From NCBI RefSeq assembly GCF_947500125.1, contig NZ_CANMRA010000026.1, positions 1 through 64,000 on the forward strand: a DNA stretch of 64,000 nucleotides, in the 5' to 3' direction. Positions 12,279-22,160 of this stretch are shown here, one piece after another. Under the pieces are notes generated by a model. It did no database searches. It had not been told where the DNA came from and saw only the letters and a list, made by a program, of their open reading frames with translations. A program made the translations under genes and the position numbers. Every line of letters begins with the position of its first letter. Position 1 is the stretch's first letter. This DNA is from an uncultured Kocuria sp. (GTDB taxonomy: Bacteria; Actinomycetota; Actinomycetes; Actinomycetales; Micrococcaceae).

Positions 12279-14354
12279 TCAGGCCGGCTCGGACGTCCCG
12301 TAGGCGCGGAGCGCAGAGTTCACCCAGAGTTCCACCTGGGCCACGACGTCGTCGGGCCCGGCCACGGCGAGCTGGCCGCCGTAGCGGGTGACGAGCGCGC
12401 ACACGGCCTCGACCGTCTGGAACCCGATGAGCGCGGCCTCGTGGTCGGCGGCCGGCCCGGTGCGGGCCCCGCCGGGCACCCGCACCACGGCGGTGCGGGT
12501 CGCGTGGTACTGGTCGGCGATCCACCGGCTGCGCCGGTCGGTGACGAGCACGACCTCCACGGTGTCCGGGGTGCCGGGGGCCGGCCGGGACGCGGCGGCG
12601 GCCTCCTGAGCGGCGGGGCGCTCCCCGGCCGGTCCGGCGTCCTCGACGGCGGAGATCCGGTCCAGCCGGAAGTTGCGCATCCCCTCGGCGTCGAGGCACC
12701 AGGCGCGCACGTACCAGTGGGTGTTGGAGGAGAACACCTGGACCGGGTCGACGACGCGCTCCGTGAGCTCGTCCCGGGACGGGACCACGTAGCGGATCCG
12801 GATCCGGCGGCGCTGCTCCACGGCGTGGCGGACCGCGGCCATGACGTCGGCGAGGGCGGGCGCGGGGGTGTCCGTGATGGGCCGGGCGCCCACCGCGTTG
12901 GCGAGCACCCCGGCGTCCCCCGCCGCGCCGGCGACCTTCGCGATCGTCGAGGCCACGGCCTCGGAGTCCCCGCCGGGCACGGTGCGCAGCGTCTGCAGCC
13001 CCACGAGCAGCGCGGAGGCCTCGGGCTGCGTGAGGCGCACGGGGTCGGAGAGCTCGTCCGCGTTGGAGAGGTAGACGTGGCCGTCGTCCCAGGACGCGTC
13101 GATCAGCTGGTCCGGCATGTGCCCGGGCTTGCCGCACACGAACAGGGTGTTGAGGTCCGCGATCAGCTCCTGGTCGGTGATCCCGAACCGGCGGGCGGTC
13201 TCCTCGAGCTCCGCGCCCTGGTGGGCGTAGACCCAGCGGACGATCTCGAGCAGCCGCGAGAGGTGGTCGGCGGTGGAGAGCTTGTTGCGCGTGCCCTTGC
13301 GGGACTTCAGGCTCCAGTCGACCTGCACGCCGCGGAACCGGGCCACGGCCGACTCGGCGCTGTGCAGCCGGCGCACCACGGCGGCGCGCACCTCGGCCTG
13401 CATCGTGGGCGCGGTGCCGTCCCCGTCCCGGGGCACGACGACGCCGGGGCCGGCCGCGGCGATCTCCTCGGCGAGGATCTCGGTCTCCGCGAAGGGGATG
13501 TGCAGCCGGTCCCAGTGGTCGACACCGTCCCCGGCGGTGGTGCCCGGCTCCTGCCGGGAGGCCATGCGGCGCAGCATGTGCGCGTGGCCGGGCCGGGCGA
13601 GCACCTCCACGGCGCGCGCCGGGGCGTGCGAGACCATGTGGGAGAGCGCCTCGTTCATGGAGAAGCCCTCGGGCGGGGCGAACTCCTTGCGGGTGACCGT
13701 GACGTCGGACATGATCCGCGACAGCCGGAAGGTGCGGGAGTCCTTGCGGTCGAGGTCCCAGCCGACCACGTACCAGTTGCCGTAGCGGGAGCCGATCCCC
13801 CAGGGCCTCAGCCGCCGGGTGGTGAGCTGGTCGGTGCTGCGGGCGAGGTAGTCGAAGCGCACCTCGCGGTGGCGCACCACGGCGGAGAGCAGCGGCTCGA
13901 AGGACGGTTCGTGGGCCGTGAGGGTCGGCTGCAGCAGGGGCGGGGCGTCGTCCTCGGGCAGGCCCCCGATGGCGGGCTCGAGCTTGCGCAGGGCTCGGTG
14001 GGCGAGCTCGCCGAGGGAGGCGTCCGTCCAGGCGTTGGCCGCCAGGGCGAGCACCGCGGACTCCTCCGCCGTGAACTGCAGCGGCGGGAGGGTGAAGGAG
14101 CCCCGCGGGATCCGGTAGCGGTGGCCGTGCGTGTCGTCGGGGAACAGGGGGTCCTCGGAGACCTCCTCGATGGGGTAGCCGAGGTCGCGCAGCTCCGCCT
14201 TGTCGCGCTCGAACATGCGCTCGAACGCCTCGTCGGACGCGGACTCCGCGTACGACGGAACGGCCTCCCGGAGCTCGGCGCGGGTGTACCCGCGTTCGCG
14301 GGAGACCAGGGCGATGAGCAGGTTGAGAAGCCGCTCCGTCGATCGGGCTGCCAT
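12279..14354 (-). CDS. pafBC: PafB-PafC fusion, WYL-domain transcriptional activator
   Basis: A 691-residue protein made of two tandem HTH-WYL modules. First half: winged helix (RSTERLLNLLIALVSRERGYTRAEL) and WYL domain with VRFDYLARSTDQ and NWYVVGWDLDRKDSRTFRLSRI. Second half: HTH (ADHLSRLLEIVRWVYAHQGAELEETARRFGI), WYL with IRIRYVVPSRDE and HWYVRAWCLDAEGMRNFRLDRI. Mycobacteria encode PafB and PafC separately, while Arthrobacter has a fusion like this one. The complex activates the RecA/LexA-independent DNA damage response. ATG 14354 has a weak GAGGA and lies 11 bp after the FKBP gene. Confidence 0.93.
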   Translation of the reverse strand: MAARSTERLLNLLIALVSRERGYTRAELREAVPSYAESASDEAFERMFERDKAELRDLGYPIEEVSEDPLFPDDTHGHRYRIPRGSFTLPPLQFTAEESAVLALAANAWTDASLGELAHRALRKLEPAIGGLPEDDAPPLLQPTLTAHEPSFEPLLSAVVRHREVRFDYLARSTDQLTTRRLRPWGIGSRYGNWYVVGWDLDRKDSRTFRLSRIMSDVTVTRKEFAPPEGFSMNEALSHMVSHAPARAVEVLARPGHAHMLRRMASRQEPGTTAGDGVDHWDRLHIPFAETEILAEEIAAAGPGVVVPRDGDGTAPTMQAEVRAAVVRRLHSAESAVARFRGVQVDWSLKSRKGTRNKLSTADHLSRLLEIVRWVYAHQGAELEETARRFGITDQELIADLNTLFVCGKPGHMPDQLIDASWDDGHVYLSNADELSDPVRLTQPEASALLVGLQTLRTVPGGDSEAVASTIAKVAGAAGDAGVLANAVGARPITDTPAPALADVMAAVRHAVEQRRRIRIRYVVPSRDELTERVVDPVQVFSSNTHWYVRAWCLDAEGMRNFRLDRISAVEDAGPAGERPAAQEAAAASRPAPGTPDTVEVVLVTDRRSRWIADQYHATRTAVVRVPGGARTGPAADHEAALIGFQTVEAVCALVTRYGGQLAVAGPDDVVAQVELWVNSALRAYGTSEPA

Positions 14355-14365
14355 CCGGTGGGTCC

Positions 14366-14761
14366 TCAGCGCACGTCCAGGAGGTCCACCACGAAGATCA
14401 GGGCCTCGTCGGGGCCGATGACCCCGCCGGCTCCCCGGGAGCCGTAGGCCTGGTCCGCGGGGATCTCCAGGCGGCGGCGGCCTCCGACCTTCATGCCGAG
14501 CAGGCCCTTGTCCCAGCCCTCGATGACCTGGCCGATGCCCACCGTGAAGTCGAGGGGCTGGCCGCGGTTCCAGGACGCGTCGAACTCCTCGCCGGCGGAG
14601 AACGTCACGCCCACGTAGTGGCAGGAGATCTGCTTGCCGGGAGTCGCCTCGGCGCCGGTGCCCTCCACAAGGTCCGTGCTGACGAGCTCGGTCGGGGCCT
14701 CCCCCTCGGGGAAGTCGATCTCGGGCTTGCTGCGGTCGAGCTTGCGCTCTCCGAAGGACAT
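14366..14761 (-). CDS. Cytoplasmic FKBP-type peptidyl-prolyl isomerase
   Basis: A 131-residue single FKBP domain with no signal peptide. It shows VGVTFSAGEEFDASWNRGQPLDF, VIEGWDKGLLGMKVGGRRRLEIP, and DQAYGSRG, matching the FK506-binding pocket residues (Val-Ile, Trp, Tyr). It catalyses cis-trans proline isomerisation. It sits directly before pafBC, the arrangement usual in actinobacterial pup loci. Confidence 0.92.
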   Translation of the reverse strand: MSFGERKLDRSKPEIDFPEGEAPTELVSTDLVEGTGAEATPGKQISCHYVGVTFSAGEEFDASWNRGQPLDFTVGIGQVIEGWDKGLLGMKVGGRRRLEIPADQAYGSRGAGGVIGPDEALIFVVDLLDVR

Positions 14762-14850: not shown

Positions 14851-15810
14851 CTACTCCCCGGTCGCGGAGGGGGACGGCGAGGCGGAGGGCTCGGTCTCGA
14901 CCGGCGCCTCGGGGGTGTCCACGGCCGCCAGGATGTCGACGACGAAGAGCAGGCTCCCGGCCGGGTAGTCGGAGTCCTCGCCCAGCTCCTTCTCCGTGCC
15001 GTAGGCCTGGCCGACGGGCACGGACAGGATCACGCGGGAGCCCTCCTTCTTGCCCTCGAGGCCCTCCTGCCAGCCCTCGATGACGTTGTCGAGGGGGAAG
15101 GACGCTGGGGCGCCGTTCTCGTAGGAGGAGTCGAAGGTCTCGCCGTCGGACCACTTCACGCCCACGTAGTGCGCGATGACGGTGTCGCCCTCGGCGACCT
15201 CCTCGCCGTCGCCCTCGACGAGGTACTCGGAGACGAGCTTCTTCGGGGCCCTGCCCTCCGGCTCGGCCACGGCCGGCACGCCCTCGTCGTTCTCGGTGAC
15301 CTCGGGCAGGCCCCGGGGGCTGTCCTGCATGTCGCCCTCGATCTCGGTGGGGATCTTCCGGACGACCTCGTAGACCTCCACGGAGGTCGACTCGTCGCCG
15401 GCGGCCCCGGCGGTCTCCGGGGAGGAGTACGCGATGATCGCGCCCTCCTTGGCACCCACCAGCGCGTCGTACATCTCCGGGATCTGGTCCTTGAGCTCCT
15501 GCTCGAGCTGGAGCACCTGTCCGGCGCCGCGGGAGTAGGTCTCGCCGATCGAGGTGCCGTCGGAGCCCTTGAAGAGCGCCGCCTGCAGCAGGATCGTGTC
15601 GCCCTCGGCGATCTCCTCCCCCTCACCCTCGCGCAGCTCCTTCGCGCCGGCCTCCTCGGCGTTGAGGGGGGTCTCGAAGGTGATCGACGGGGCCGTGCCC
15701 GGGTCCGGTTCGTTGCTGAGCTCCACGGAGTCGACGCCGGGCCCGGAGCAGCCCGCGAGGACGAGGGCCAGGGACAGGGCGGCGCCGGAGGTGGTCAGGG
15801 TCTTTCGCAC
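14851..15810 (-). CDS. Lipoprotein FKBP-type peptidyl-prolyl isomerase
   Basis: A 319-residue protein with lipobox (SLALVLAGC; Cys about 21). An N-terminal degenerate FKBP-like domain (about 50-170, with ILLQAALFKGSDGTSIGETY and VLQLEQELKDQIPEMYDALVG) is followed by an intact FKBP domain (about 205-300: AHYVGVKWSDGETFDSSYENG, VIEGWQEGLEGKKEGSRV, VGQAYGTEKELG). A Ser/Pro/Glu tail ends the protein. It is a surface-anchored foldase and lies 89 bp upstream of the cytoplasmic paralogue, so the pair likely arose by duplication with relocation. Confidence 0.9.
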   Translation of the reverse strand: MRKTLTTSGAALSLALVLAGCSGPGVDSVELSNEPDPGTAPSITFETPLNAEEAGAKELREGEGEEIAEGDTILLQAALFKGSDGTSIGETYSRGAGQVLQLEQELKDQIPEMYDALVGAKEGAIIAYSSPETAGAAGDESTSVEVYEVVRKIPTEIEGDMQDSPRGLPEVTENDEGVPAVAEPEGRAPKKLVSEYLVEGDGEEVAEGDTVIAHYVGVKWSDGETFDSSYENGAPASFPLDNVIEGWQEGLEGKKEGSRVILSVPVGQAYGTEKELGEDSDYPAGSLLFVVDILAAVDTPEAPVETEPSASPSPSATGE

Positions 15811-15934: not shown

Positions 15935-17380
15935 TCAGACCACGGGGGCGTCCCCGTGGGCCCGGCCGGTGGCGTCGCGCCCGCCGAGGGAGGCCACCAG
16001 GGCGTCGGCCTCCGCGTTCTCCACGGCGAACGGGTCCTTGCACAGCACCGTGCGCTGGCTGCGGTCGTTGACCTTCAGGTGCACCCAGTCGACGGTGTAG
16101 TTGTGCCCGGAGGCGACGACCGCGTCGATGAACCGGCCGCGCACGGCGGCCCGTGTGGCGGGCGGGGTCCGGGCGGCCTCCTGGACCCGCTGGTCCGGGA
16201 CGAAGGTCGCCGCCCGCCCCCGGCGCTGCAGGAGGTTGAACAGCCCCCGCTCCGGGGCGGTGTCGTGGTACGCGAGGTCCAGCTGCGCCATCCTCGGCGC
16301 CGAGAGGTCCAGTCCGTCGCGGGCGGCGTAGCCGTCGAGGAGCTTCTTCTTGATCGCCCAGTCGATCTCGGTGTCGATCGCGGAGGCGTCCTGGCGGGCC
16401 ACGGCGTCCAGGGTCCGCTCCCACAGGTCCAGCACCCACGGGACCCGGTCGTGGTGGGCGCCCTCGCGGTCCACGAACCGGCGCACGGCCTCCAGGTGCT
16501 CGCGCTGCAGGTCCAGGGCGGAGCGGCGGGTGCCGTCGGCGAGCGGCACCGGGCGGGTGCCGGTGAGGTCGTGGGAGACCTCCCGGAGGGACCGCACCGG
16601 GTCCACCATGGTGCGGTCGGGCAGGATCTGCCCGGCCTCGATCATCCGCAGCACGAGGTCGGTGGTCCCGATCCGCAGCGCGGTGGTGGTCTGGGACATC
16701 GTGGAGTCGCCCACGATGACGTGCAGCCGGCGGTAGTGCTCGGCGTCGGCGTGCGGCTCGTCCCGGGTGTTGATGAGCGGCCGGGAGCGCGTCGTGGCGG
16801 AGGAGGAGCCCTCCCAGATGTGGTCGGCGCGCTGGGAGAAGGAGTAGCTGGGCGCCCCGGCGGCGTCCCCCACCCGCACGGCGCCGAAGTCCTCGGGCCC
16901 GGCGGGGTGCACCTTGCCGGCGCCGACGAGCAGCTGCCGGGTGACGAGGAACGGGATGAGGATCTGCACGAGCCGGGCGAACTCGGTGCGCCGGGCGATG
17001 AGGTAGTTCTCGTGGGAGCCGTAGGAGTTGCCGCGCGAGTCCACGTTGTTCTTGAACAGGTACAGCTGCCCGGCCACCCCCTGCTCCCCCAGGGCCTCCT
17101 GGGCCTGCCGCCGGAGGTCGTCGACGATCAGTTCGCCGGCCTTGTCCTGGGCGACGAGGTCCTCGAGCGTGGCGCACTCCGCGGTGGCGTACTCGGGGTG
17201 GGAGCCGACGTCCAGGTAGAGGCGTCCGCCGTTGGGCAGGAACACGTTCGAGGACCGGCCCCAGGCCACGACGGGCCGGAAGAGGGTGCGCGCGGCCTCC
17301 TCCGGGCTGATCGGACGGGCGCCCGGGGCGCTGTGGGTGAGGCCGAACTCGGTCTCGACCCCGTAGATCCTGCGGTCCAT
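15935..17380 (-). CDS. pafA: Pup-protein ligase PafA
   Basis: A 481-residue member of the carboxylate-amine ligase fold. It has GVETEFG (7-13, metal/ATP Glu), [16 protein letters not shown] with the catalytic Asp at about residue 57, [20 protein letters not shown], and [15 protein letters not shown]. PafA uses ATP to phosphorylate the Pup C-terminal Glu and joins it to substrate lysines. It starts 5 bp after the pup stop. In most actinobacteria prcB and prcA lie between pup and pafA; here they are absent. Confidence 0.95.
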
Positions 17381-17385
17381 GGGGG

Positions 17386-17589
17386 CTACTGGCCGCCCTT
17401 CTGGACGAAGCCCTTCACGAACTCCTCGGCGTTGGACTCGAGCACGCCGTCGATCTCGGCGAGCAGGTCGTCGGCGCTGGTCGCGCTGGTCTGGGACTGG
17501 GCGGCGGTGGGCGCGGGCGCGCCGGGCTCGGGGAGCTCGGTCTCCTCGCGGCGCTGGGCGCCGGTGCCGAAGATGCGTTCCTGGGCCAT
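17386..17589 (-). CDS. pup: Prokaryotic ubiquitin-like protein Pup
   Basis: A 67-residue protein with the Pup landmarks: a disordered N-terminal half and a C-terminal coiled-coil region ([28 protein letters not shown] split here by the reader into [14 protein letters not shown] and [14 protein letters not shown]). The C terminus is Gly-Gly-Gln, the precursor form that Dop must deamidate to Glu before PafA can attach it. It lies 34 bp after dop and 5 bp before pafA. Confidence 0.95.
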
Positions 17590-17623
17590 GACGGGGTCCT
17601 CCTGGGTTCGGTGGTCGGGGTGC

Positions 17624-19261
17624 TCAGCCGAGGGAGCCGGTGTGCACGAGGGCGGGTCGGGCGGCGGCGAGGGCGCGGACGAGGTGCTCGGCGTCCGGTG
17701 CCGCGGACAGCAGGGGGTCGACGTCCTCGCGGGTCAGCTCGAGCGGCTCGGGCATCGCGATCCGCGCGCCGCGGCGGACACCGGGCAGGGTGAGCGAGAC
17801 CGAGTCCCAGTTGGCCGTGAGGACGTCGTCGGGAAAACGGGTGACCAGCCGGCCCCGCAGCCACGCCCGGGTGTCGGCGGGCGGCTGTCCCACCGCGCGC
17901 TCGAGGTCCTCCGCGCCGAACAGGGTGCGCATCCGCCCGGCCGCGACCAGCCGGTGGTAGAGCCCCTTCTCCGGGCGCACGTCCGCGTACTGCAGGTCGA
18001 TCAGCGTCAGGCGCGGGTCCGCCCAGGCGAGGCCGTCGCGCTCGCGGTAGCCCAGCAGCAGGGCGTGCTTGGCGACCCAGTCCAGGCGGTCCGCCAGCGA
18101 CAGGGGGTCGGTCTCGAGGGCGTCGAGGACCTCCGCCCAGAGCTCGAGCACCTCGCGGGTCTCCGGGTCCGGGCCCCCGGTGGTCTGCTCGTGCGCCCGG
18201 GCGGCCTCGAGGTAGAGCCGCTGCAGCTGGACGCCCGTGAGCTCCCGGCCGTCCCGGAGCGGCACGGTGGTGGTCAGCCCGGGGTCGTGGCTGATCGCCT
18301 GCAGCGCGGCCACGGGGTCGACGAGCGCGAGGTCGGGGGCGGTCCCGGCCTCGATCAGGCCCAGGACCAGGGAGGTGGTGCCGAACTTGAGCAGGTTCGA
18401 GGTGTGGGAGAGGTTGGCGTCGCCGATGATGACGTGCAGGCGCCGGTGGCGGGTGCGCTCGGCGTGGGGCTCGTCGCGGGTGTTGACGATGGGCCGGTGG
18501 ACCGTGGTCTCGAGGCCGACCTCGCGCTCGAAGAAGTCGGCGCGCTGGCTGATCTGGAAGCCGGGGCGCTGGCCGCGGTCGCCGAGGCCGACGCGCCCGG
18601 CGCCGCACACGACCTGGCGGGAGGCGAAGAAGGGCAGCAGGCCCGCGGCGAGGGCGTCGAAGGGCACGGAGCGGGGCACGAGGTAGTTCTCGTGGGCGCC
18701 GTAGGAGACGGACTTGTTGTCGGTGTTGTTCTTGTAGAGGTTCACGACGTCGAGGCCGGTGGCCGGGGCGCTGGCGGCGATCGCGCGGACCGCGTCGAGG
18801 GCGACCCGGTCCCCGGCGGCGTCCCAGAGGACGGCGTCGCGGGGGGTGGTGACCTCCGGGGAGGAGTACTCGGGGTGGGAGTGGTCCACGTAGAGGCGGG
18901 CGCCGTTGGGCAGGACGGTGTTCATCACGACCTGGCGCCAGTCCATGGACTCCGCGTGGGGGCCGGTCTCCCGGAGGGCCTCGGCGGCGACCTCCTCGGC
19001 GGTGAGCACCGGGGCGACGTCGGTGAGCTGGGAGGGGTCGGCCTGCTCGCGGGGGACGGCGAAGCCGCGGGCGTCCTGGAGGGGGGTCTCGCCGTGGTAG
19101 TCCCAGCCGGCGGTGGCGCGGGACGCGCCGAGCCGGCGCCGCACGAGGGCGGCGTAGGTGGTGACCACCTGGGTGGAGAGCACGGTGGCGTTGGCGTGGG
19201 CGTTGCCGGTGGCGAGCACGCCGTACTCGGTCTCCGCGCCCATGACGCGGCGGACGCTCAT
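17624..19261 (-). CDS. dop: Pup deamidase/depupylase Dop
   Basis: A 545-residue paralogue of PafA. It shows GAETEYGV (8-15), the Dop-specific insertion after it (TGNAHANATVLSTQ), LYVDHSHPEYSSPE with nucleophilic Asp at about residue 126, LYKNNTDNKSVSYGAHENYL, and ANLSHTSNLLKFGTTSL. It deamidates the Pup C-terminal Gln and removes Pup from conjugates. The start overlaps the arc stop in an ATGA, implying coupled translation. Confidence 0.95.
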   Translation of the reverse strand: MSVRRVMGAETEYGVLATGNAHANATVLSTQVVTTYAALVRRRLGASRATAGWDYHGETPLQDARGFAVPREQADPSQLTDVAPVLTAEEVAAEALRETGPHAESMDWRQVVMNTVLPNGARLYVDHSHPEYSSPEVTTPRDAVLWDAAGDRVALDAVRAIAASAPATGLDVVNLYKNNTDNKSVSYGAHENYLVPRSVPFDALAAGLLPFFASRQVVCGAGRVGLGDRGQRPGFQISQRADFFEREVGLETTVHRPIVNTRDEPHAERTRHRRLHVIIGDANLSHTSNLLKFGTTSLVLGLIEAGTAPDLALVDPVAALQAISHDPGLTTTVPLRDGRELTGVQLQRLYLEAARAHEQTTGGPDPETREVLELWAEVLDALETDPLSLADRLDWVAKHALLLGYRERDGLAWADPRLTLIDLQYADVRPEKGLYHRLVAAGRMRTLFGAEDLERAVGQPPADTRAWLRGRLVTRFPDDVLTANWDSVSLTLPGVRRGARIAMPEPLELTREDVDPLLSAAPDAEHLVRALAAARPALVHTGSLG

Positions 19262-21030
19262 GCGGGCCCCGCCCCGGGAGCCGCGCCGGCGCGTGCGGGG
19301 ACGTGGCGCGCGCCGGGTCCGGCCGGGTGCGGGTCGCGGTGCAGGACCACGCGCAGGTCCGTGATCGTGTCGCCGCGGCGCCCGGAGATGCGGGCCCAGT
19401 CCTCCGGGTTGGAGGTGTTGGGCAGGTCCTGCTGCTCGTGGAACTCCTCGTCCACGGCGCGGACCAGGTGCTCGCGGCCCAGGCCGCGGATCCCGGTGGT
19501 GAGCAGGTCCTTGATGGCCTGCTTCTTGGCCCGGTCCACCACGTTGCGGATGACCGCCCCGGAGGTGAAGTCGCTGAAGTAGAGGGTCTCCTCGGTGCCG
19601 TCCCGGTAGCTCAGGTGCAGGAACTGCGTGCCGGGGCTCTTCTGGTACATCCGGGCCACGGCGGCGTCGACGAGGGCGGTGACGGCCCCGGTGCGGGAGC
19701 CGGCGGCGTCGACCTCGTCCTGGCGCAGGGGCAGGTCCTCGGTGACGTAGAGCCGGAGGATCTCGGCGGCGCCCTCGGCGTCCGGGCGGTCGATGCGGAT
19801 CTTGACGTCGAGCCGGCCCGGTCGCAGGACCGCGGGGTCGATCATGTCCTCGCGGTTGGTGGCGCCGATGACGATGACGTTGTCGAGGCGCTCCACGCCG
19901 TCGATCTCGGTGAGCAGCTGCGGGACGATGGTGGTCTCCACGTCCGAGGACAGCCCGGAGCCGCGGGTGCGGAACAGGGAGTCCATCTCGTCGAAGAACA
20001 CGACCACGGGGATGCCGCGGGCGGCCTGCTCGCGGGCGCGCAGGAAGATGGAGCGGATCTGCCGCTCGGTCTCCCCCACGTACTTGTCCAGCAGCTCGGG
20101 GCCCTTGATGTTCAGGAAGTAGCCCAGGGCCTTCTCGCGCCCGGCGCGGTCGGCGGCGCGCTCGGCGAGGGAGCGGGCGACGGCCTTGGCGATGAGGGTC
20201 TTGCCGTTGCCGGGGGGCCCGTAGAGGAGGATGCCCTTGGGCGGGGTCAGCCCGTGCTCGCGGTAGAGCTCGGGGTGGACGAAGGGCAGTTCCACGGCGT
20301 CGCGGATCTGCTCGATCTGGGGGCCGAGGCCGCCGATGTCGTCGTAGGAGACGGCGGGGACCTCCTCGAGGACGAGCTGCTCGACGTCGGAGCGCTCGAT
20401 GGGCTCGAGGGCGAAGCCGGTGCGGTGGTCGATGGACACGGCGTCGCCGATCTCCGGGCGGCTCCGGCGCAGGAGCCCGGAGAGCAGCAGGACGCGCTCC
20501 TCGTCGGAGCGTCCCACGGTGAGGACGCGGTCGTGGTCGACGATCTCCTTGACGGTGGCGATCTCGCCGGTCTGCTCGTAGTCGAGGACGGCGCCGACGG
20601 TGTAGTTCTGGTCGAGGAGGACCTGGCGGCCCGGTTCGCAGGCGGCGAAGCTCACGAGCGGGCTGAGGGCCACGCGCATGCGGCGCCCGGCCACGAGGAC
20701 GTCGAGGGTGCGGTCGGTGACGGCGGGACCGATGCCCGTCTGCTCGCCGACCGGGGTGCGCCCGGGGTTGACCTGCAGCACGGTGCCCTGGCTCAGGGGC
20801 GGGACCAGGTCGTTCTCGAGGGCGCGCTTGAGCTGGGCGATCTCGGTGCGGGTCGCGTCGAGGAGCCGGACGAGCTTCTGGTTCTGGGTGCCGGCGGCGG
20901 CGAGCTGCTTGTCGAGGGCTCGCTTCTGGTCGCGCAGGATGTTGACCTGCCGCTGGGCGTTGACCAGGGCACGGCGGGTCTGCTCGGCGTCCGCCGGTCC
21001 GGTGGTCTGCTGCGGGGACGTCTCGTTCAC
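19258..21030 (-). CDS. arc: Proteasome-associated AAA ATPase ARC (Mpa), lacking the proteasome-docking tail
   Basis: A 590-residue protein. The N-terminal coiled coil (about 15-75) binds Pup in the family. Two OB domains follow (about 85-215), then the AAA module with Walker A GPPGNGKT (271-278), Walker B VVFFDEMD (343-350) and VIGATNREDMIDPAVLRPGRLD. In proteasome-bearing actinobacteria the protein ends in a short Gln-Tyr-Leu motif that opens the 20S gate. Here it ends in a Pro/Ala/Gly-rich stretch finishing GAAPGAGPA. It overlaps both trmI (4 bp) and dop (4 bp). Confidence 0.94.
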   Translation of the reverse strand: MNETSPQQTTGPADAEQTRRALVNAQRQVNILRDQKRALDKQLAAAGTQNQKLVRLLDATRTEIAQLKRALENDLVPPLSQGTVLQVNPGRTPVGEQTGIGPAVTDRTLDVLVAGRRMRVALSPLVSFAACEPGRQVLLDQNYTVGAVLDYEQTGEIATVKEIVDHDRVLTVGRSDEERVLLLSGLLRRSRPEIGDAVSIDHRTGFALEPIERSDVEQLVLEEVPAVSYDDIGGLGPQIEQIRDAVELPFVHPELYREHGLTPPKGILLYGPPGNGKTLIAKAVARSLAERAADRAGREKALGYFLNIKGPELLDKYVGETERQIRSIFLRAREQAARGIPVVVFFDEMDSLFRTRGSGLSSDVETTIVPQLLTEIDGVERLDNVIVIGATNREDMIDPAVLRPGRLDVKIRIDRPDAEGAAEILRLYVTEDLPLRQDEVDAAGSRTGAVTALVDAAVARMYQKSPGTQFLHLSYRDGTEETLYFSDFTSGAVIRNVVDRAKKQAIKDLLTTGIRGLGREHLVRAVDEEFHEQQDLPNTSNPEDWARISGRRGDTITDLRVVLHRDPHPAGPGARHVPARAGAAPGAGPA

Positions 21031-22160
21031 GGGCGCTCCTCGTCGGGGTGCTCGAAGGCCTCCGGCTCAGGAGCCGCTCCGGGTGCCGGGGCGGACGCCG
21101 GCGGAGGCGTCGTGCCGGGGGCGTCGGCCGGCGCGGTCGCGCGGGCGGCGCGCTCGGCCAGGCCGAGGGCCTCGCGGCCGGCGCGGCGCAGCTTCTTGTC
21201 GGTGACGTCCCGCTCGCCCAGGGCCACGGGGGTCCAGGCCTGCAGGTCCTCCTCGCTGTACTCGGACTTGGAGGCCCGCCGCTTGGGCGCCAGCCGCTCG
21301 GAGCCGTCGGCGAGCCGGCGGGCGGAGAGCAGGAAGCCGGTGTGGGCGACCATGCGGTGGTCCGGACGCACGGCCAGGCCCTCGACGTGCCAGCCGCGGA
21401 CCATGGTCTCGGAGGCGTCGGGCTCGGTGAAGCGGCCGTCGGCGCGCATCGCCTCGGCGGTGCGGGAGAGCTGGGTGACGGTCGCGACGTAGCACATGAC
21501 CACCCCGCCGGGGGTCAGGGCCGTGGCCACGGCGTCGAGGCACTCCCACGGGGCGAGCATGTCGAGGACCACCCGGTCCACGGAGCCGGGCGCCTCGTGC
21601 TCGCCGAGCTCCTCGGCGAGGTCCCCGATGCTGATCTGCCACGCGGGGTGCGGGCCGCCGAACATGGTCTCCACGTTGCCCCGGGCGATGTCGGCGAACT
21701 CCGCCCGCCGCTCGAAGGAGTGCAGCCGGCCCTCGTCGCCCACCGCGCGCAGCAGGGAGATGGACAGCGCGCCGGAGCCGACACCGGCCTCGACCACCCG
21801 GGCGCCCGGGAAGATGTCGGCCATCGTGATGATCTGGCCGGCGTCCTTGGGGTAGACCACCGCGGCGCCGCGCGGCATGGACAGCACGAAGTCCTTGAGC
21901 AGCGGGCGCAGGGCCTGGTACCGGAAGCCCGCGGAGTTCTCGACCACGGTGCCCTCCGGGCGGCCGATGAGCTCGCCGTGGCTGAGCACCCCGCGGTGGG
22001 AGTGGAACGCGCCGTCCTCCGCGAGCGTGACCGTGTTCATCCGCCCGCGCTCGTCGGTCAGCTGCACGCGCTCCCCGGCCCGGAAGGGCCCGCGCCGGTT
22101 GGCGGCGCCCCGCGGGGACGCGGGCGAGGGGTCGGCGGTCTGGTCAGCGGTTCCGGTCAT
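21027..22160 (-). CDS. trmI: tRNA (adenine-58-N1)-methyltransferase TrmI
   Basis: A 377-residue protein. An N-terminal beta domain (GERVQLTDERGRMNTVTL, FHSHRGVLSHGELIG) precedes a Rossmann methyltransferase domain with YPKDAGQIITMADIFPGARVVEAGVGSG split by the SAM motif VEAGVGSGALS, and DRVVLDMLAPWE. It makes m1A58 in the tRNA T loop. A long Ala/Pro tail is extra. It is the first gene of the pup cluster, with a 4-bp overlap into arc. The start at 22160 has a weak ribosome binding site. Confidence 0.9.
   Translation of the reverse strand: MTGTADQTADPSPASPRGAANRRGPFRAGERVQLTDERGRMNTVTLAEDGAFHSHRGVLSHGELIGRPEGTVVENSAGFRYQALRPLLKDFVLSMPRGAAVVYPKDAGQIITMADIFPGARVVEAGVGSGALSISLLRAVGDEGRLHSFERRAEFADIARGNVETMFGGPHPAWQISIGDLAEELGEHEAPGSVDRVVLDMLAPWECLDAVATALTPGGVVMCYVATVTQLSRTAEAMRADGRFTEPDASETMVRGWHVEGLAVRPDHRMVAHTGFLLSARRLADGSERLAPKRRASKSEYSEEDLQAWTPVALGERDVTDKKLRRAGREALGLAERAARATAPADAPGTTPPPASAPAPGAAPEPEAFEHPDEERP

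Follow-up and report, generated by a model that had tools for sequence, protein, structure and literature searches.

The window, a 64,000-nucleotide stretch of DNA, carries on its reverse strand a compact run of five genes, and its genus was taken as Kocuria because its ARC shares 97% identity with the ARC in a Kocuria polaris record. The run begins with trmI (21027..22160), which encodes a tRNA methyltransferase of the TrmI/GCD14 kind (377 residues; PF14801 and PF08704) and overlaps by 4 bp the GTG-initiated arc/mpa (19258..21030), encoding the Pup-binding AAA+ unfoldase (590 residues; TIGR03689, 736 bits). There follow dop (17624..19261) for the Pup deamidase/depupylase (545 residues; TIGR03688, 637 bits), pup (17386..17589; 67 residues; PF05639 at 70 bits and the Pup C-terminus model TIGR03687 at 65) and pafA (15935..17380) for the Pup ligase (481 residues; TIGR03686, 678 bits). 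PafA, Dop, ARC and Pup are named by curated TIGR models, each above its cut-off, and TrmI by Pfam. The tight succession of genes recorded in the preliminary description is borne out, with spacings of -4, -4, 34 and 5 bp and five open frames free of internal stops; the place between pup and pafA that prcB and prcA hold in 20S-bearing relatives is indeed 5 bp only (17381..17385), the coordinates being confirmed to the base. On the same strand, next to pafA, lie two genes for FKBP-type prolyl isomerases (PF00254), a long one (14851..15810) and a short one (14366..14761), and a pafBC-like regulator gene (12279..14360) in which a single frame covers both the WYL domains and HTH_PafC (PF19187, PF13280) and whose start was picked by eye. 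An FKBP gene is a known neighbour of Pup loci according to the accessible part of PMC2588565.

The surroundings of the locus vary among relatives. One Kocuria clade (L012, L013 and L015-L017) has no trmI or pafBC match inside its loci; the block in L016 has an MFS transporter gene upstream and genes for an M20 peptidase, BacA and a class I tRNA-synthetase (C) downstream, and HTH_PafC is found ~12-14 kb away from pafA in seven of the clade's genomes. In two genomes of one genus (G013 and G043 of g13, the g-numbers being the genus codes of our survey sample) HTH_PafC gave no match, and arc, dop, pup and pafA are present.

The Pup of the window ends in VQKGGQ, and the Gly-Gly-Gln end is found in 24 of 24 Kocuria rows (the window and L081-L103); Dop therefore stays needed, as had been proposed. 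The active-site region of PafA is unchanged with respect to that of the solved Pup ligase 4b0t, its Asp being residue 57, and that of Dop reads ARLYVDHSHPEYSS where the solved depupylase 5lrt has ARLYVDHAHPEYST, a difference of two neighbouring residues, its Asp being residue 126. The Asp within each of these motifs is presumably the catalytic residue. These alignments to solved structures agree with the earlier judgement that the catalytic residues of both enzymes look intact. Length differences near the Dop loop were considered as a Kocuria trait and rejected, as they are general variation. ARC has a Walker A motif at 271, the pore motif KYVG at 316 and Walker B at 343, and its C-terminus is GAGPA, GQYL being absent. 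A different Pup end was seen in two 20S-less loci, L104 (G002) and L115 (G042), where it is GGE, so deamidation by Dop would be unneeded in these two genomes; in both genera, the other two members included have GGQ.

The suggestion that this genome does without the 20S proteasome could have been overturned by prcB or prcA genes elsewhere. A PF00227 profile search of the 4.31-Mb draft assembly (105 contigs, rated 100% complete) gave 0 matches, and at the sensitivity of that model neither gene is present in the draft. The model does give matches in both E. coli and B. subtilis, to proteins that we take to be of the HslV kind; since it reaches these and yet finds nothing here, HslV seems to be missing too. 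Within the family sample, PF00227 was found in 162 of 295 genomes and in 19 of 32 genera, leaving 133 genomes without a match, among them all 24 sampled from the window's genus. ARC was found in 294 of the 295, the sole miss (G189) being a 20S-less, fragmented assembly in which the contig with pafA measures 5,153 bp. Sixty genomes chosen from the sample, 55 of them 20S-less, all matched PafA at 1e-100, and 58 did so above the cut-off. A loss of Dop in g10, g11, g13 and g14, which gave a single PafA-type match each at 1e-100, was rejected, a lower-scoring Dop being present; in this check L121 is cut by the contig end.

For comparison of loci we used the window and the loci of 80 further genomes; the stretch from G189 is without ARC, which gives 80 ARC rows. 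L121 (G189) was accordingly left out of the 80-row tree and the ARC counts, and G167, a 71% complete genome with 20S matches that has pafA and dop on separate contigs, was not counted among the loci. In 24 of 24 Kocuria rows the pup stop and the GxExE motif of PafA are 21-23 bp apart, so the short interval in the window is not a local accident; in 20S-bearing rows with both genes on the contig the distance is about 1.5-1.7 kb. The 80 ARC rows divide into 22 with both the 20S genes and a GQYL end (including L152, whose contig breaks off within prcBA), 24 from Kocuria and 29 further 20S-less ones, all tailless, 4 that have the 20S genes and a tailless ARC, and 1 (G008) with a tail and without the 20S. 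Among loci from named organisms, 16 of 17 from Kocuria have pup and pafA and are without prcBA and GQYL, the seventeenth being cut, and 61 of 63 from other genera have prcB, prcA and GQYL, the remaining two being short contigs; this named set overlaps the first (14 of its 17 Kocuria loci and 4 of the other 63 have an ARC frame identical to one there) and is not independent of it. One contig, L049, is labelled as an Acidobacteria MAG and yet has an arc-dop-pup locus of Micrococcaceae type, which is probably due to wrong binning or naming.

The docking tail is where ARC of Kocuria departs most from that of its 20S-bearing relatives. GQYL ends all 22 rows grouped as 20S-bearing with a tail and none of the 24 Kocuria rows. 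Of the sites with 95% or higher conservation across these 22 rows, Kocuria has lost 13 of 20 in the tail (549-590) against 29 of 298 in the body (Fisher p = 2.4e-8, only a guide as the rows are related); both Walker motifs and the pore motif are retained. The last three residues of the 24 Kocuria proteins are GAA in five, GPA in three and sixteen other endings once each. A scan for GQYL or GQYF before a stop found none in the window's whole assembly; in the eight genomes scanned for GQY(L/F), the 20S-bearing controls G018 and G031 yielded exactly ARC and Bpa. Bpa itself (PF10759) was found in 20 of 80 genomes overall, G029 and G189 being left out of that search, and in 0 of 24 from Kocuria, the window's genome included. 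G025 and G015 have the 20S genes and an ARC with GQYL and gave no Bpa match, an exception to the published strict co-occurrence. The association of tail and 20S rests on the raw counts and the ARC site test, in which the rows are related; a comparison of independent pairs on starred branches gave five pairs, two going the same way, none the opposite way and three showing no difference (p = 0.5), a test without power. Cpa was considered as a further partner of the 20S; 0 of 10 genomes, 20S-bearing ones included, passed the cut-off of the CDC48 model, which may not reach Cpa.

We compared the window with six Kocuria loci by the Nei-Gojobori method and obtained dN/dS values of 0.12-0.23 for ARC, 0.18-0.29 for PafA, 0.20-0.49 for Dop and 0.10-0.55 for Pup, the last based on 4-11.5 synonymous changes in a gene too short for the values to mean much; the neighbours gave 0.12-0.21 (TrmI), 0.10-0.19 (PafBC) and 0.24-0.46 (the long FKBP). 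ARC, Dop, Pup and PafA are under purifying selection. ARC has the lowest value of the four in five of six pairs (the exception is the comparison with L099, where Pup falls below it on few changes), Dop and PafA are less tightly constrained than TrmI, and in most pairs Dop and Pup are looser than TrmI and PafBC, Dop reaching 0.49 in one. With no PF00227 match, no Bpa, no GQYL and the genes under constraint, the proposal that pupylation is kept for a role other than 20S degradation is supported as far as sequence goes.

We consider it probable that this Kocuria runs a working proteasome-free pupylation cycle. Dop would turn Pup-Gln into Pup-Glu, which PafA would join to lysines of target proteins; ARC would then grip the Pup part and draw the tagged protein into its pore, so that proteins are unfolded or complexes dismantled with no hand-over to a protease, and Dop would afterwards strip and recycle Pup. 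Tagging in the cell, unfolding by ARC in Kocuria and the identities of the targets are what we infer.

A different reading is that the locus is a relic that is disappearing after loss of the 20S proteasome. The somewhat relaxed Dop and Pup speak for it, as slow decay would also give looser constraint, and proteasome-less lineages are the more divergent, as judged by ARC E-values and as stated in the accessible text of PMC3511204. Two of 27 distinct Kocuria loci moreover have frame breaks: in G259 (L099) dop is spread over two frames, and in L006 (Kocuria atrinae C3-8) pafA and trmI each are. Decay or read errors are possible causes of both, and those of L006 point to read errors because trmI is hit as well. 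In the remaining 25 loci, however, the on-contig pathway genes are full or nearly full length (L003 is cut by the contig end), dN/dS is below 0.6 in every pair, and the split within Kocuria is deep, so there has been time enough for loss. We regard decay as very unlikely.

It could also be argued that ARC passes pupylated proteins not to the 20S but to another compartmental protease, ClpP or FtsH, and two ClpP-family genes do lie side by side in the window's genome. We think this very unlikely: the tail of Kocuria ARC is variable, with no conserved new docking motif seen in it across 24 rows, and HslV, which is within reach of PF00227, was not found in the assembly. In keeping with the retention of both PafA and Dop in the complete loci examined would be a reversible regulatory mark that is read without unfolding, ARC being kept for another reason; the differing phenotypes of pup and prcB mutants in S. 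coelicolor, given in the accessible text of PMC8223512, lend themselves to this as well. Such a mark is nonetheless unlikely, given an ARC that has the lowest dN/dS in five of six pairs, retains its Walker A, Walker B and pore motifs and is present in 294 of 295 genomes. We prefer the cycle in which ARC would unfold the tagged proteins.

Unfolding of tagged proteins by ARC without degradation has been proposed for ferritin, the target in C. glutamicum and the example studied best (accessible text of PMC8223512 and PMC12288473). The BfrB-type ferritin of the window's genome contains just one lysine, K102, which is found in all six Kocuria ferritins of this type. Among 27 Kocuria genomes the BfrB type is present in 6 (a search at 1e-20 gave no match in the other 21), another ferritin in 13 and neither in 8. 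The last eight have only a weaker PF00210 match, partial in one, none matching the ferritin; these weak matches are called Dps-like, judged from L210 and from the second match of the window's genome (L162). Six of these eight genomes are within the locus set, and all six keep ARC, Dop, Pup and PafA. Since 8 of 27 genomes are without a ferritin match beyond the Dps-like or partial ones, the ferritin role is not general, and ferritin cannot explain the retention of pupylation across Kocuria.

The locus also differs from that of Corynebacterium in its Pup, which ends in GGQ and needs Dop (that of C. glutamicum we take to end in GGE), and the BfrB-type ferritin is found in only 6 of 27 Kocuria genomes. 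What the two have in common is pup directly before pafA, an ATPase lacking the docking motif and the absence of the 20S, as far as the accessible text of the 2012 review PMC3511204 describes Corynebacterium; the same text gives for proteasome-less actinobacteria in general pup placed directly before pafA and an ATPase kept without its C-terminal interaction motif. The earlier suggestion of Corynebacterium-like unfolding by ARC without a proteasome is supported as far as the sequence goes, within two limits: reviews already give the idea, and the ferritin example does not extend to all of the genus. About half of the sequenced actinobacteria have lost the core 20S genes according to the accessible part of PMC6466877, and the accessible legends to figures on prcBA presence name Micrococcus luteus, of the same family, and Kocuria rhizophila, of the same genus. 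With the canonical Pup-proteasome of Mycobacterium and Arthrobacter the window shares orthologous ARC/Mpa, Dop, Pup and PafA in identical order, and differs in being without prcBA, a Bpa match and the GQYL tail. The idea of proteasome-less pupylation is already published in reviews, and the locus fits the known type; two additions may be new, namely that ferritin is not general across Kocuria and that the order in which tail and 20S were lost differs between relatives.

That order was read from a Dop-PafA-TrmI tree of the 80 rows, made by a quick search under LG+G4; it is unrooted, TrmI is missing in 8 of the 80 rows, several forks are open, and G008, G002 and G029 have long branches. The tree calls for 6 changes in the 20S and 3 in the tail, or 11 separate losses of the 20S if regain is barred. 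One branch (SH-aLRT 98) sets apart a Kocuria side of 48 rows, all with tailless ARC, and four of these carry 20S genes: L138 (G001, genus g2) and L129-L131 (G093, G110 and G155, genus g21). As all 48 are tailless while four keep the 20S genes, tail-first is the simplest order, and in this set ARC probably parted with its tail earlier than the 20S genes went. In the Kocuria lineage ARC was probably uncoupled from the 20S ahead of the loss of prcBA, and this forms part of the explanation we prefer.

The four genomes have prcA and a prcB with Thr, Asp and Lys at the positions of the catalytic residues, both genes being open. Constraint was computed for g21 only, where dN/dS of the prc genes is 0.06 in the closest pair and 0.11 in a wider pair (dS > 1); the three 20S-bearing g21 assemblies have 4-7% contamination, but the prc genes sit inside the pup locus. 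Regain of prcBA by transfer was considered for g2 and g21 and not adopted, the genes being at the usual pup-pafA place. A PrcB-PrcA tree of 25 rows, from which L109 and L152 were left out, puts g2 and g21 together and apart from the other rows (100/100), and the Dop-PafA-TrmI tree, which joins g2, g16 and g21, is in keeping with it; as both trees are without an outgroup, transfer into g2 and g21 from outside the family is possible. These four g2 and g21 genomes would have a proteasome without a recognised activator: they gave no match for Bpa (PF10759), and among open frames of at least 40 residues GQYL or GQYF ends were found only in two unrecognisable ones. An uncoupled 20S has a precedent in the literature: Propionibacterium acnes is a reported exception that keeps the 20S in the absence of both ARC and Bpa (accessible text of PMC4254994). 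Kocuria differs in being without the 20S, and the g2 and g21 relatives in keeping it with a tailless ARC.

Tentatively, we suggest that the ancestor of Kocuria and ten other sampled genera may have had a tailless ARC with prcBA still present, pupylation being already a non-degradative unfoldase pathway; the 20S would then have been lost several times, and that of g2 and g21 would be fed by another route. The opposite order, the 20S reduced and the ARC tail kept, is what the sequence of G008 (L109) points to. Its ARC ends in NTGQYL, and its pup-pafA interval of 272 bp holds one short open frame that starts PrcB-like by eye and matches PrcA at its end with 22 bits, apparently the short remnant of a recent internal prcBA deletion; Bpa gave a partial match, still ending in GQYL. 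G077 (L137) of g26 is 20S-less and tailless where the other four members of g26 in the locus set have the 20S and GQYL, an isolated and probably young loss. In the literature searched, largely the accessible text of open papers, neither the order of uncoupling nor a 20S combined with a tailless ARC is mentioned.

Taken by itself, the locus extends a known list by one species. The survey of ferritins has a wider consequence, in that iron release in C. glutamicum, the one worked example, cannot be the general answer. Since one family includes members with the 20S, members without it, one with a remnant and others that combine a tailless ARC with the 20S, what pupylation does without degradation becomes a question that can be asked among close relatives.
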